This document shows positions 5,658-10,860 of a stretch of 10,989 nt of DNA, piece after piece. Source of the DNA: Candidatus Sumerlaeota bacterium (GTDB lineage: Bacteria; CG03; SLGR01); contig SLGR01000173.1 of NCBI GenBank assembly GCA_007136585.1, positions 1 to 10,989 of the forward strand, read 5' to 3'. Both the position numbers and the translations under genes were made by a program. The notes below the pieces were generated by a model. It made no database searches and was not told the DNA's origin. It was given only the letters and a program-made list of their open reading frames with translations. Position 1 is the first letter of the stretch. Every line of letters starts with the position of its first letter.

Positions 5658-6472
5658 GAGTAAGAGACCTCATCGGGGAACCCCCGGCGGTGATGGGGAT
5701 ACTTAACGTTACGCCGGATTCTTTTTCCGACGGGGGAAGGTTCCTTGAAAAGGAAAAGGCCGTTAACCGGGCCCTAAGGATGAAAGAGGCCGGAGCGGCT
5801 ATTGTTGATATAGGAGGGGAGTCCACAAGGCCGGGGGCTTCTCCCGTGAGCGAGCAGGAGGAGATATCCAGGGTTATCCCTGTGATAGAGGAAGTCGCCT
5901 CAAGGGGTATCCCGGTCTCCTGCGATACATCAAAACCGGGGGTCGCCCGCGAGGCCCTACGGCGGGGGGCTGTTATGATAAATGATGTGCGCGGTTTTTC
6001 AGACCCGGAGATGAGGGAAGGTGCAGCCGGGTATAATGCGGCGGTATGCGTGATGCATATGAAGGGCACCCCACGGAGTATGCAGAGCGGACCACGGTAT
6101 GAGAACCTGCTCTCCGAGATAAGGGAGTACCTCCACCGGCAGGCCTCGCTCTGCCGGGAGGCGGGGATCCCCCGGGAGGAGATATTCATTGATCCCGGGG
6201 TGGGTTTCGGAAAGACCCTTGAACATAACCTTGAGTTAATCGCAAACGCGGATTTTTTTACGGTGCGGCACCCTGTGCTTATGGGGGTCTCGCGCAAATC
6301 GTTTATAGGTATGATATCCGGGCTGCATCCCCGTGACCGGCTCGGAGGCTCGGTGGCTTCGGCCTGCTGGTTAGCTCTTAAAGGGGTGGATATTCTCAGG
6401 GTTCATGATGTGAAAGAGACGGTGGAAGCCCTTAAGGTTATTAAAGAGATAAGGAAAAGGCGTAATGAGTGA
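5654..6472 (+). CDS. folP: Dihydropteroate synthase (FolP)
   Basis: Condenses p-aminobenzoate with dihydropterin pyrophosphate to form dihydropteroate; it is the sulfonamide target. From TTG 5654, within the TTGA overlap of the folE stop, the protein has 272 residues. Motifs seen are VMGILNVTPDSFSDGG (13-28), DIGGESTRPGA (52-62), INDVRGF (109-115), FIDPGVGFGKT (178-188), GVSRKSFIG (211-219) and RVHDV (249-253), all hallmarks of the TIM-barrel pterin-binding family. The frame stays open upstream inside folE, but the family needs only about ten residues before VMGILNVTPD. GTG 5690 or ATG 5693 would leave too little, so TTG is the best choice despite its weak codon and lack of a clear Shine-Dalgarno. 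Its substrate pABA is the product of the PabC domain at the window's left end. Confidence 0.93.
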   Translation: MRVRDLIGEPPAVMGILNVTPDSFSDGGRFLEKEKAVNRALRMKEAGAAIVDIGGESTRPGASPVSEQEEISRVIPVIEEVASRGIPVSCDTSKPGVAREALRRGAVMINDVRGFSDPEMREGAAGYNAAVCVMHMKGTPRSMQSGPRYENLLSEIREYLHRQASLCREAGIPREEIFIDPGVGFGKTLEHNLELIANADFFTVRHPVLMGVSRKSFIGMISGLHPRDRLGGSVASACWLALKGVDILRVHDVKETVEALKVIKEIRKRRNE

Positions 6473-7265
6473 CTTTTTCTATATAGCGCAGAGGATCTGG
6501 CTTGATTACCTGAGGCATATCGCGGATATACTTATAAGCGCTTTTATAATATACAAGCTTATGGCTCTTGTGCGCGGGACCAGGTCCGTTCAGGTTCTGA
6601 GGGGGATACTTTTTCTTCTCGCGGCGACCGTCATATCCAGCGTCCTGGACTTTGTCCTTATAGGGTGGATGCTGAGGTGGTTCTGGGTGGCGGGGGCGGT
6701 AGCGCTTGTGATTGTATTTCAGCCCGAGGTCAGGAGTTTCCTGGCGGATCTTGGCTCAGGGCGCCTTACCAGGCTCATTATGCGCGGCAAGGCCGAATTC
6801 CTTGACGAGGTTTTGAAAAGCCTGAAGAATATATCCAGGCGCGGGCAGGGGGCCCTTGTGGTCCTTGAGCAGGATACGGGGCTGAGAAATTACATTGAGA
6901 CGGGGATAACGATTAACGCCGAGGTTACAAGTGAGCTGATAGAGACGATTTTCACCCCCCAGTCCCCTCTTCACGACGGGGCGGTCATAATCTCAGGGGA
7001 CAGGCTTATAGCCGCGGGGTGCATACTTCCGCTGACACATAACCCGATGATGTCAAAGGTCATAGGGACAAGGCACAGGGCCGCCGTGGGGCTTTCCGAG
7101 GTCTCGGATGCGATAATATGCATCGTCTCTGAGGAGACAGGAGAGTACTCAATGGCGCACGACGGCACTCTCAGGAAAGGGCTGGAGCTTGATGAGATAA
7201 AGAAAACCCTTATGAGGCACTACCAGGAGAAAGCTGCCGAGAAATCGGCGGATATTGATCAGTAG
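6465..7265 (+). CDS. cdaA: Diadenylate cyclase CdaA (DacA)
   Basis: Membrane-bound cyclase that joins two ATP into cyclic di-AMP, a second messenger for potassium and osmotic balance and the cell wall. It has 266 residues. Three hydrophobic segments lie at about residues 17-36, 45-66 and 72-86. A conserved FQPEVRSFL linker follows, then the DAC domain with PLHDGAVII (DGA at 171-173) and GTRHRAAVG (RHR at 203-205), the two catalytic motifs. Both are intact, so the enzyme should be active. The gene overlaps folP by 8 nt (ATGAGTGA), with AAGGAAAAGG upstream as a ribosome-binding site. In many bacteria cdaA is followed by cdaR/ybbR and glmM. Here only a short anchor-like ORF follows and glmM is absent. 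Confidence 0.96.
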   Translation: MSDFFYIAQRIWLDYLRHIADILISAFIIYKLMALVRGTRSVQVLRGILFLLAATVISSVLDFVLIGWMLRWFWVAGAVALVIVFQPEVRSFLADLGSGRLTRLIMRGKAEFLDEVLKSLKNISRRGQGALVVLEQDTGLRNYIETGITINAEVTSELIETIFTPQSPLHDGAVIISGDRLIAAGCILPLTHNPMMSKVIGTRHRAAVGLSEVSDAIICIVSEETGEYSMAHDGTLRKGLELDEIKKTLMRHYQEKAAEKSADIDQ

Positions 7266-7285
7266 AAGGAACCGGAAACAGGATA

Positions 7286-7384
7286 ATGACGCGCAAACAG
7301 ATGAAGAAAAACTCTCTTTTAAAGCTGCTGGCTCTTTTCATAGCGGTACTCCTCTGGATATACGTTATGTATATGGGGCAATGA
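7286..7384 (+). CDS. 32-residue single-span membrane micro-ORF resembling the CdaR/YbbR N-terminal anchor
   Basis: A small ORF between cdaA and pdxJ encodes a basic start (MTRKQMKKNSLLK), one hydrophobic span (LLALFIAVLLWIYV) and a short end (MYMGQ). The basic-LKLL-LFIAVLLW-YV pattern is what I would expect at the N terminus of CdaR (YbbR), the extracytoplasmic regulator that normally follows cdaA. The YbbR repeats that should come next are completely missing: a TGA at 7382-7384 ends the frame and overlaps the pdxJ ATG as ATGA. GGA at 7274-7276 or AGGA at 7280-7283 may serve as ribosome-binding site; an internal ATG at 7301 is an alternative start. It may be a decayed cdaR remnant or a retained membrane micropeptide. 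The tight coupling to pdxJ suggests it is still translated, but that is inference. Confidence 0.65.
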   Translation: MTRKQMKKNSLLKLLALFIAVLLWIYVMYMGQ

Positions 7385-8091
7385 TAAAACTGGGGGTAAA
7401 CATAGACCATGTCGCAACCCTCCGTCAGGCCCGCCGACAGGGGATCCCCGATATAGTACAGGCGGCCCGGGCCGTCTCTGCCGGAGGCGCTGATATCATA
7501 ACCGTTCACCTGAGAAGGGACAGGAGACATATACAGGATAGCGACCTTTATCTTCTTAAAAAAAACTCCCCTCTTCCCCTTAATATGGAGATGGCGGCGG
7601 ACCGGGATATAACCGGTATCGCCCTTGATGTGAGGCCGGCGAGCGTATGTCTGGTCCCTGAGAACCGGATGGAACTTACTACCGAGGGGGGGCTTAACGT
7701 AAAAGAAAGCGCCTCCGCCCTTGAAGAGACTCTCCCGGTTCTTAAAAAAGCCGGGATAGAGGTATCTTTTTTTATTGACCCCCTTAAGGAGCAGGTAAGG
7801 GCCTCTTATGAGGCCGGGGCCGATGCCGTGGAGCTTCATACGGGAAGTTACGCAGACTCAGGGCCCGAAACCCTTGAAGCTGAGCTGAACCGGCTGAGGG
7901 AAGCCGCCGCCCTTGCGGTGGAGCTAGGGCTGAAGCTCAATGCGGGACACGGGCTTGATTACTCAAACCTCATTCCCGTAAGGGATATCCCCGGTATAAG
8001 CGAACTTAATATAGGGTATTCCATCGTATGCCGGGCTATCTTTACGGGGCTTGAAGCGGCGGTGCGGGAGATGAAAGAGCTGATTTTGTGA
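7381..8091 (+). CDS. pdxJ: Pyridoxine 5'-phosphate synthase PdxJ
   Basis: Condenses 1-deoxyxylulose 5-phosphate with 3-amino-2-oxopropyl phosphate to form pyridoxine 5'-phosphate in the DXP-dependent vitamin B6 route. It has 236 residues, close to the usual 240. It begins with the near-universal MIKLGVNIDHVATLRQAR. Catalytic positions are recognisable: H43 in VHLRRDRRHIQD, E70 in LNMEMA and H190 in LNAGHGLDY. CLVPENRMELTTEGGL, IDPLKEQV and ELHTGSYA are also typical. Two substitutions stand out: HLRRDRRH where HLREDRRH is common, and NIGYSIV where NIGHxIV is common. ATG 7381 fits the family N terminus exactly; a longer in-frame reading from 7255 would add about 40 unrelated residues. It overlaps the micro-ORF upstream (ATGA) and the small membrane protein downstream (GTGA). 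Its PLP end product is the PabC cofactor. Confidence 0.96.
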   Translation: MIKLGVNIDHVATLRQARRQGIPDIVQAARAVSAGGADIITVHLRRDRRHIQDSDLYLLKKNSPLPLNMEMAADRDITGIALDVRPASVCLVPENRMELTTEGGLNVKESASALEETLPVLKKAGIEVSFFIDPLKEQVRASYEAGADAVELHTGSYADSGPETLEAELNRLREAAALAVELGLKLNAGHGLDYSNLIPVRDIPGISELNIGYSIVCRAIFTGLEAAVREMKELIL

Positions 8092-8366
8092 GAAATAAGC
8101 GGAGAGGCCTGGTCTTTCTTCTCCTTCTTTCCGCGGGGTACTGGCTCTTTGTTTTCCTGGGACCCCGGGAGGAGCCGGACGTGAAGATGCCCTGCCGGGA
8201 TACGGGCCAGATGGTGCTTGAGAGCACCATAGATGTTTTTAAGGAGATCCGGGGACGGTACCCGGAGTCATTGGAGGAACTTAAGGAGCAGGGTTTCCTT
8301 GATGAGATTCCGGATAGCGGAGATACCCCGTGGGATTACACCCCGGAGGACGGGGCTATCAGATGA
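8088..8366 (+). CDS. Small membrane-anchored protein with pseudopilin-like C-terminal motif, function unknown
   Basis: A 92-residue protein that I cannot assign. It has a basic start (MRNKRRG) and a hydrophobic span at about residues 8-25 (LVFLLLLSAGYWLFVFLG). A short linker containing one cysteine follows, then a helix (VLESTIDVFKEIRGR) and YPESLEELKEQGFLDEIPDS ending in PWDYTPEDG. The pattern of a helix, then YP-SLEEL, G-L--IP, W-Y and G, is the same order seen in the C-terminal part of type II secretion and type IV pseudopilins (GspG-like). The basic-Gly-hydrophobic N terminus is also reminiscent, but the glutamate at position +5 after the glycine is absent, so it is probably not a processed pilin. 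The GTG start overlaps the pdxJ stop (GTGA), and its own stop overlaps acpS (ATGA), so it is co-translated with metabolic genes rather than secretion genes. Confidence 0.75.
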   Translation: MRNKRRGLVFLLLLSAGYWLFVFLGPREEPDVKMPCRDTGQMVLESTIDVFKEIRGRYPESLEELKEQGFLDEIPDSGDTPWDYTPEDGAIR

Positions 8367-8728
8367 GCATAGCCGGGACGGGGATTGATATAGTATGCAC
8401 CTCAAGGTTTGACCCTGCGCGGGTGGAGGCCCTGGCCGGGAAGATGTTGACGAAACGGGAGGCTGAGTACTGCCGGAGCCGCAGGGATTTTATCCTGCAT
8501 ATGTCCGGGAGGATAGCGGCCAAGGAGGCCTTTTTCAAGGCGGCAAACCGTATTGACAGCAGCCTCTCCTGGAAGGATATAGAGGTCACCTCCCGGGGGG
8601 TTCCCGGGCTCTCCGGGGAGTGCCGTGCCTACAGTCTCCTTGAATCAAGGAACCTCCAATGCAGTCTCTCCATATCCCACGATACCGGGTACGCGGTTGC
8701 CCACGCGCTTATTTGGAGCAAGGAATGA
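8363..8728 (+). CDS. acpS: Holo-[acyl-carrier-protein] synthase AcpS
   Basis: Transfers 4'-phosphopantetheine from CoA to a serine of acyl carrier protein, activating fatty acid synthesis. It has 121 residues, a normal length. The N-terminal GTGIDIV holds magnesium ligand D9. GRIAAKEAFFKA (49-60) holds E55, the second ligand, and corresponds to the family's R-AAKEA-KA. LSISHDTGYAVAHAL near the end matches the conserved SISH--YA-A. The start at ATG 8363 overlaps the preceding stop as ATGA, and the family begins directly with I-G-GIDIV. The pdxJ-acpS-nnr neighbourhood is a familiar one. The stop is followed at once by the structured repeat pair. Confidence 0.94.
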   Translation: MSIAGTGIDIVCTSRFDPARVEALAGKMLTKREAEYCRSRRDFILHMSGRIAAKEAFFKAANRIDSSLSWKDIEVTSRGVPGLSGECRAYSLLESRNLQCSLSISHDTGYAVAHALIWSKE

Positions 8729-8734
8729 AGAAAT

Positions 8735-8875
8735 TGAGTCAGCCCCCGCTGGCACGGTTTTCCTCATTCTCGCAGCCTATGGCTGCTCCGAGGGGTTCCG
8801 TCCGGAGGACGGAGCAAACCCGGAAACCCGTACCGCCGGGGACTGTAAATGTATATAAGGGTATTTTCAGGTGAA
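8735..8875 (+). repeat. Structured intergenic repeat, copy 1 (three-arm foldback)
   Basis: First of two diverged direct copies. It shares with copy 2 the 10-mer TGAGTCAGCC (8735-8744), the 11-mer CTCATTCTCGC (8763-8773), the 9-mer GCTCCGAGG (8785-8793) and a tail ATTTTCAGRTGAA. Both copies have 28 nt between the starts of the first two blocks. An outer stem pairs 8751-8763 with 8822-8834 (11 of 13 positions). Inside are two perfect hairpins: GCAGCC-TAT-GGCTGC (8772-8786) and TCCGTCC-GGA-GGACGGA (8797-8813). A 49-codon reading frame crosses it from ATG 8725, but the copies differ by out-of-frame length changes, so a nucleic-acid structure is preferred to a peptide. Confidence 0.75.
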
Positions 8876-8915
8876 ACGCCCATGAGTAAAGACACGCAAA
8901 AAGCAATTAAAATAC

Positions 8916-9038
8916 TGAGTCAGCCTCTGCCGGCATCCGTTTACTCATTCTCGCTTCGCTCCGAGGTCGACCCTGTCGAAATCCGTAAACATATGCCGGC
9001 ATCGTCTGAGGGTGTATGCGTGGATATTTTCAGATGAA
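8916..9038 (+). repeat. Structured intergenic repeat, copy 2 (three-arm foldback)
   Basis: Second copy, starting 181 nt after copy 1 and extending into the start of nnr. An outer stem pairs 8928-8944 with 8985-9001 (15 of 17 positions; arms begin TGCCGGCAT and end ATGCCGGCA). Inside are a small CTCG/CGAG hairpin (8950-8965) and a perfect TCGAC-CCT-GTCGA hairpin (8967-8979). The stems differ in sequence from copy 1 but occupy the same places and remain paired. The tail GGATATTTTCAGATGAA includes the nnr ATG at 9034. The 40 nt between the copies (8876-8915) are AT-richer and show no structure I can support. Confidence 0.75.
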
Positions 9039-10527: not shown

Positions 10528-10542
10528 TGGTGCAGTTTGCAG

Positions 10543-10549
10543 AAGGAGG
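10543..10549 (+). promoter_or_regulatory. Strong Shine-Dalgarno for the following membrane protein
   Basis: AAGGAGG lies 5 nt before ATG 10555 and is the best ribosome-binding site seen in the window. It decides the start: the ATG at 10551 meets a TAG after three codons, and TTG 10537 lies before the site. It suggests independent and probably strong translation after the 27-nt gap behind nnr. Confidence 0.8.
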
Positions 10550-10554
10550 AATGT

Positions 10555-10860
10555 ATGCTTAGTGTAATTTTTGGTCTGGCAGGTATCGTTATAGGAGCGC
10601 TCTGGCTTGCCGCGTGGGGAGCCTGGGAGCCGTTTCTGGTAGTTCTTCAGGGTTCAATTCCGCCGTTTATAATCCTTGTAGGTCTCATCGCCGTAGCGGC
10701 CGGTATATCCAGTATGAAGGATAATATGGCGGCTAAAAAGGAAGAGGCTGAGCTGGAGGAAGAATCCGGTTCGGAAGAACCTGCCGCCCCGCAGGAAGAA
10801 TCCGGACCGGAAGACATTTCCGGAGCCCAGGAGCCTGAAGAGGAAAAAAGAGAAGAATAA
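10555..10860 (+). CDS. Small two-span membrane protein with glutamate-rich cytoplasmic-type tail, unknown function
   Basis: A 101-residue protein not assigned to a known family. It has two hydrophobic segments, at about residues 3-22 (VIFGLAGIVIGALWLAAWG) and 27-53 (FLVVLQGSIPPFIILVGLIA then VAAG). A basic patch (KDNMAAKK) follows, then a 40-residue tail dominated by Glu, Ser, Pro and Ala (for example EEAELEEESGSEEP). The tail looks disordered and is far more acidic than anything else here. The basic patch after span 2 suggests that the tail stays in the cytoplasm by the positive-inside rule. It lies between nnr and tsaE, which are usually adjacent, so it is an insertion into that pair or a lineage-specific member. 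The strong ribosome-binding site supports real expression. Confidence 0.75.
   Translation: MLSVIFGLAGIVIGALWLAAWGAWEPFLVVLQGSIPPFIILVGLIAVAAGISSMKDNMAAKKEEAELEEESGSEEPAAPQEESGPEDISGAQEPEEEKREE

Follow-up and report, generated by a model that had tools for sequence, protein, structure and literature searches.

Micro-CdaR: a candidate CdaA membrane subunit related to the CdaR anchor and lacking YbbR domains, encoded beside cdaA in several phyla

In Firmicutes and other bacteria the gene of the membrane diadenylate cyclase CdaA is directly followed by the gene encoding CdaR (YbbR, PF07949), a protein of roughly 120-420 aa. Two-hybrid work has placed the contact between these two proteins in the transmembrane region of CdaA (PMC6368335, PMC8573169). 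The mode of action of CdaR on CdaA has been stated to be unclear (PMC8573169), and the reported effects include activation and repression (PMC6368335, PMC8573169, PMC9259658), with no conclusive effect on the cyclase in S. aureus (PMC6368335). In the part of the open-access literature that was covered, no description was found of a small or anchor-only CdaR, or of CdaA in Elusimicrobiota.

In other systems, very small single-helix proteins bind a larger membrane complex and stabilise or tune it. KdpF, CydX and AcrZ are examples, the first two with genes inside the operon of the complex that they serve, and stabilisation is a common role of such subunits. Unlike these proteins, which belong to a transporter, an oxidase and a pump, the peptide described here is encoded beside a second-messenger cyclase, and no sequence relation to them is claimed. 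This putative micro-CdaR resembles CdaR in the position of its gene directly after cdaA, in its basic N-terminal segment and in its anchor pattern, but it has no YbbR domain and is only about 30 aa long.

The micro-ORF between cdaA and pdxJ

The window, that is the whole stretch of DNA analysed, comprises 10,989 nucleotides of a Candidatus Sumerlaeota genome, and its relevant features are the following.

6465-7265, + strand: cdaA, membrane diadenylate cyclase (Pfam PF19293 and PF02457, NCBIfam TIGR00159), the constant neighbour
7286-7384, + strand: putative micro-CdaR, CdaR membrane anchor without YbbR domains (ORF, conservation, profile, dN/dS 0.195)
7319-7372, + strand: hydrophobic span of micro-CdaR, residues 12-29 (alignment A1, helical conservation pattern)
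7355-7357 and 7361-7363, + strand: codons of W24 and Y26, both invariant in alignment A1
7381-8091, + strand: pdxJ (Pfam PF03740, 1.6e-92), a neighbour that varies in relatives, with glmM here in other lineages

The product of cdaA has both the three-helix CdaA_N domain (Pfam, 1e-10) and the DAC domain (Pfam, 1e-40; TIGR00159, 1.9e-73). The micro-ORF encodes the 32-codon sequence MTRKQMKKNSLLKLLALFIAVLLWIYVMYMGQ, begins 20 nt after the cdaA stop (TAG, ending at 7265) and has a TGA stop which is overlapped by the pdxJ start at 7381 as ATGA. These ORF coordinates confirm the arrangement described in a sequence-only reading of this DNA, which had also given the span as 7266-7384; the end of that span is right, but 7266 directly follows the cdaA stop, and the ORF starts at 7286. 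An alternative ATG start at 7301, the starting point of most homologues, gives a peptide of 27 aa beginning with MKKN.

The 32-aa peptide has no Pfam match, and its chain ends a few residues past the membrane span. A Pfam search of the genome of the window (88% complete) gave no match to YbbR, in agreement with the earlier statement that all YbbR repeats are gone. The same statement was made for glmM; this gene is indeed absent from the cdaA operon, but it was not lost from the genome, since a full copy is located on contig C220 (E 5.8e-180). The sole Rfam match in the window is a tRNA, and therefore no known riboswitch family is present there at threshold.

We sampled 16 genomes of the phylum of the window and detected cdaA in 15. 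In all 15, cdaA is directly succeeded by an ORF with an intact frame that encodes 26-32 aa and has the same anchor. Its start usually lies 4 nt ahead of the cdaA end, and pdxJ comes next if the contig extends that far. An equivalent ORF in the same slot of every genome with cdaA indicates that the micro-ORF is more than a chance occurrence, and the retention of its frame across relatives had been named beforehand as a test. In the sixteenth genome (69% complete) neither cdaA nor the micro-ORF was detected. A profile built from these ORFs (A1) gave a single match per genome in these 15, with no second anchor copy in the phylum, and Pfam YbbR matched none of the 16.

The amino acid sequence of micro-CdaR is under purifying selection. 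The pooled dN/dS of 27 independent micro-gene pairs was 0.195, with 202 synonymous and 208 non-synonymous changes. The synonymous fraction was 0.49, compared with 0.21 in neutral simulations, and reached at most 0.34 in any of the simulations with strong transition bias. Low dN/dS and a conserved span had both been proposed as checks, and the span is in fact conserved, with W24 and Y26 invariant in A1 and a helical periodicity of conservation in each of the five groups (permutation p 0.001 to 0.03).

Homology to the CdaR anchor and occurrence in other phyla

Profile A1 was searched over 386 genomes. Outside the phylum its matches fell mostly on the N-terminal 20-25 residues of full-length CdaR encoded beside cdaA, in many families, which argues for homology to the CdaR anchor and bears out the similarity that the sequence-only reading depended on. 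Among the inspected matches with E<=0.005, 36 of 45 lay beside or in cdaA (a count taken from two search outputs). The other nine were mostly longer proteins with the anchor near the start, one being a YbbR protein by Pfam and two being encoded directly before glmM.

The micro, fused and long forms have in common the pattern N-x-x-[LI]-K-x-x-[AS]-x-x-[LI]-A-x-x-[LV]-W-x-Y, and the positions N9, K13, A/S16, A20, W24 and Y26 have the same spacing in the micro and the CdaR anchors. Position 16 is mostly Ala in the micro forms and Ser in the long forms. Judged from these sequences, the micro-ORF is homologous to the N-terminal anchor of CdaR and would descend from it or from a common ancestor. It has the single N-terminal anchor of the CdaR type and no YbbR domain; because this domain defines PF07949, we do not file micro-CdaR as a YbbR protein. 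No YbbR match above the family cut-off was found in the micro genomes tested. Pfam confirmed YbbR in 6 of 10 sampled long proteins, so the search is informative with incomplete sensitivity, and a very divergent CdaR elsewhere in the micro genomes is not strictly excluded.

The anchor-only gene was found in at least three other small phyla besides that of the window, and it is widespread in Elusimicrobiota. It was present in 6/6 genomes of the G082 phylum, in 2/3 of the G267 phylum and in 75/95 of the class of G214; in the G380 phylum all five genomes carry the anchor, four of them as fusions. The cultured Endomicrobium proavitum (G447, class of G214) has a micro-CdaR of 32 aa, MKKFLLRIMHNWHLKLLALCLAVVLWIFVVYR, which starts 4 nt before the cdaA end and has glmM as the next gene. 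The chromosome of this organism is 1,588,979 bp long (PMC4505116).

In a sample of the whole Elusimicrobiota-type phylum the profile matched 142 of 294 genomes. Family f271 gave almost no match, and the peptide is thus not universal in this phylum. At 18 of 20 further loci from this phylum the micro-ORF lies downstream of cdaA, immediately so at 17 and at a distance of 310 nt at one, and the remaining two are a micro-ORF before glmM at a contig end and a fusion. Pfam matched YbbR in only 4/294 genomes, and three of these matches are single proteins in which CdaA continues into the anchor and one YbbR domain.

A script sorted 132 distinct CdaA loci into 80 micro, 7 fused, 10 short, 26 full and 9 without an anchor, class counts that are not frequencies, as the set was partly chosen with the profile. 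The existence of CdaA loci without any anchor means that a small ORF behind cdaA is no default. The micro genes encode 24-50 aa, with a median of 32 (80 loci, including one contig-edge artefact), and 37 of the 80 start at -4 relative to the cdaA stop. L024, which the script had scored as micro, is actually a CdaR cut by the contig end.

At most loci outside the phylum of the window, as for CdaR, the micro gene is directly downstream of cdaA. The gene that follows it differs by lineage (pdxJ or glmM), and the constant is cdaA alongside. An exception is L067 (G345), where the micro-ORF is placed directly before glmM with no cdaA beside it. An anchor-like micro-ORF was also seen between topA and panC in G137 (L071), away from cdaA. 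Altogether, the anchor-only state looks old and common to several phyla, and not a peculiarity of one genome.

In three loci of the Endomicrobium type, L166 (G407), L167 (G406) and L175 (G421), the anchor has lost its W-x-Y end or the tryptophan. Two of these genomes are of 0.7-0.8 Mb, and the anchor appears as if decaying along with the genome; G406 and G407, both small, show changes in the C-terminal half of the span.

Fusions and the history of CdaA

The anchor forms the in-frame C-terminus of CdaA in four separate lineages of the CdaA tree (the G380 family, G473/G474, G443 and G574). In G443 the loss of 2 nt immediately ahead of the micro start created the fusion and left the anchor intact, as seen by comparing L183 with its close relative L184. 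With a DAC domain that finishes on the cytoplasmic side and an anchor whose basic N-terminus is expected inside, the topology of the fused proteins would be compatible.

A quick maximum-likelihood tree of CdaA, for which the longest rows and near-duplicates were left out and more Elusimicrobiota were added, recovered a single clade (SH-aLRT 90) containing every one of the 49 anchor-only rows, and required four fusion events. In a fuller tree keeping the long rows, the fusions of the G380 family fell outside the micro clade. The grouping of the anchor-only lineages in one CdaA clade makes the state look ancient, and a single early change passed down through several related phyla would explain it most simply; loss of YbbR here and its gain elsewhere would both fit the tree.

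Three single proteins of 393-420 aa (L185, L186 and L187 from G487, G663 and G534) run from CdaA through the anchor to one YbbR domain. They are similar to the present system in that CdaA is linked with a CdaR-type anchor, here in one polypeptide, but they keep a YbbR domain, and on the tree their CdaA branches far from the anchor-only clade. Besides this protein, G487 has a separate micro-CdaR locus (L191).

Proposed role and alternative explanations

We consider it probable that the ORF encodes a micro-CdaR, i.e. the CdaR anchor as a free CdaA membrane subunit of about 30 residues that docks on the three-helix domain of the cyclase. A helix that is selected, linked to cdaA, sometimes fused to its product and followed by nothing past the membrane agrees with a CdaA subunit that touches the cyclase only inside the bilayer. 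Micro-CdaR would be translated right after CdaA, probably coupled to its translation, and would insert as one helix whose basic N-terminus stays inside. The conserved face of the helix, given by the pattern above, is predicted to pack on the three-helix N-terminal domain of CdaA, presumably 1:1, so that the peptide would act as a fourth CdaA helix stabilising or tuning the assembly of the cyclase domains. We infer that it may affect c-di-AMP synthesis, in either direction. The minimal transmembrane regulator of CdaA suggested by the sequence-only reading therefore holds as regards a transmembrane partner, given the retained frame, the similarity to CdaR anchors and the lack of a second YbbR detected, while its regulatory part is what we infer.

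That reading had also allowed for a leader and for fresh decay. As a leader, the micro-ORF would couple ribosomes into pdxJ and its peptide would be inert, an option suggested by the ATGA overlap in the window and by the closeness of the next gene in many relatives. However, many lineages have glmM as the next gene and the distance varies, the overlap with cdaA (-4 in 37/80) is the commoner link, purifying selection acts on the encoded amino acids, and four lineages have the anchor fused to the upstream CdaA; we regard the leader as very unlikely. Decay after a recent truncation of cdaR is hardly credible as the origin of the ORF. Every YbbR domain is indeed missing and the anchor deteriorates in two very small genomes (L166, L167), but the frame is intact in 15/15 genomes of the phylum with cdaA as well as at many loci in other phyla, dN/dS is 0.195, and the anchor-only lineages form one clade which, spanning several phyla, is far too old for unselected decay. 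Convergence offers another explanation, in which an unrelated one-helix protein, possibly still a partner of CdaA, came to resemble the CdaR anchor. Short hydrophobic segments converge easily, and the 28 columns of the match are few and cover one helix only; yet the profile picks CdaR N-termini from whole genomes and not other membrane proteins, the six conserved positions keep their spacing, and the micro-ORF occupies the genomic slot of cdaR, which together make convergence improbable.

The peptide could also be linked to CdaA only as an assembly or stability factor, or as a membrane localiser, and exert no control over the cyclase output. This is a real possibility, though not the one we favour. 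Small one-helix subunits often have a stabilising role, and in micro-CdaR no extracytoplasmic domain remains for sensing. In addition, results from different species disagree on how CdaR affects activity (PMC6368335, PMC8573169, PMC9259658). Nothing decisive stands against this explanation, as regulation and stabilisation cannot be separated from sequence.

For micro-CdaR as a CdaA subunit, nature has apparently performed a minimal-domain experiment in which one helix was kept by selection, and this suggests that the working core of CdaR is one membrane helix. If one helix is all that selection keeps, then the CdaA-CdaR interface must be in the membrane, with the YbbR repeats as an optional extra. 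We lean slightly towards a broader proposal, in which the membrane helix is the part of CdaR that is essential and micro-CdaRs of about 30 aa would be an obligate fourth helix of CdaA in a group of phyla (the lineage of the window, Elusimicrobiota and small relatives), repeatedly fused into CdaA. If true, this would be an ancient class of c-di-AMP microproteins, with control of the cyclase without any extracytoplasmic sensor. Micro-CdaR adds a microprotein class that annotation has probably overlooked because of its small size.

Other elements of the window were also observed. Between pdxJ and acpS there is an ORF of 92 aa (8088-8366) with an N-terminal hydrophobic span and a pseudopilin-like stretch, YPESLEELKEQGFLDEIP, with no Pfam or NCBIfam match over the cut-off. 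The gap from acpS to the next gene (8720-9009) contains two 54-nt direct copies that are 76% identical and an inverted repeat (8920-8949 / 8980-9009), which together look like a small dispersed repeat element. A further ORF of 107 aa (10537-10860) has two hydrophobic spans and an acidic tail, and gave a weak NCBIfam match to the magnetosome protein MamI, with 40.8 bits where the cut-off is 80.
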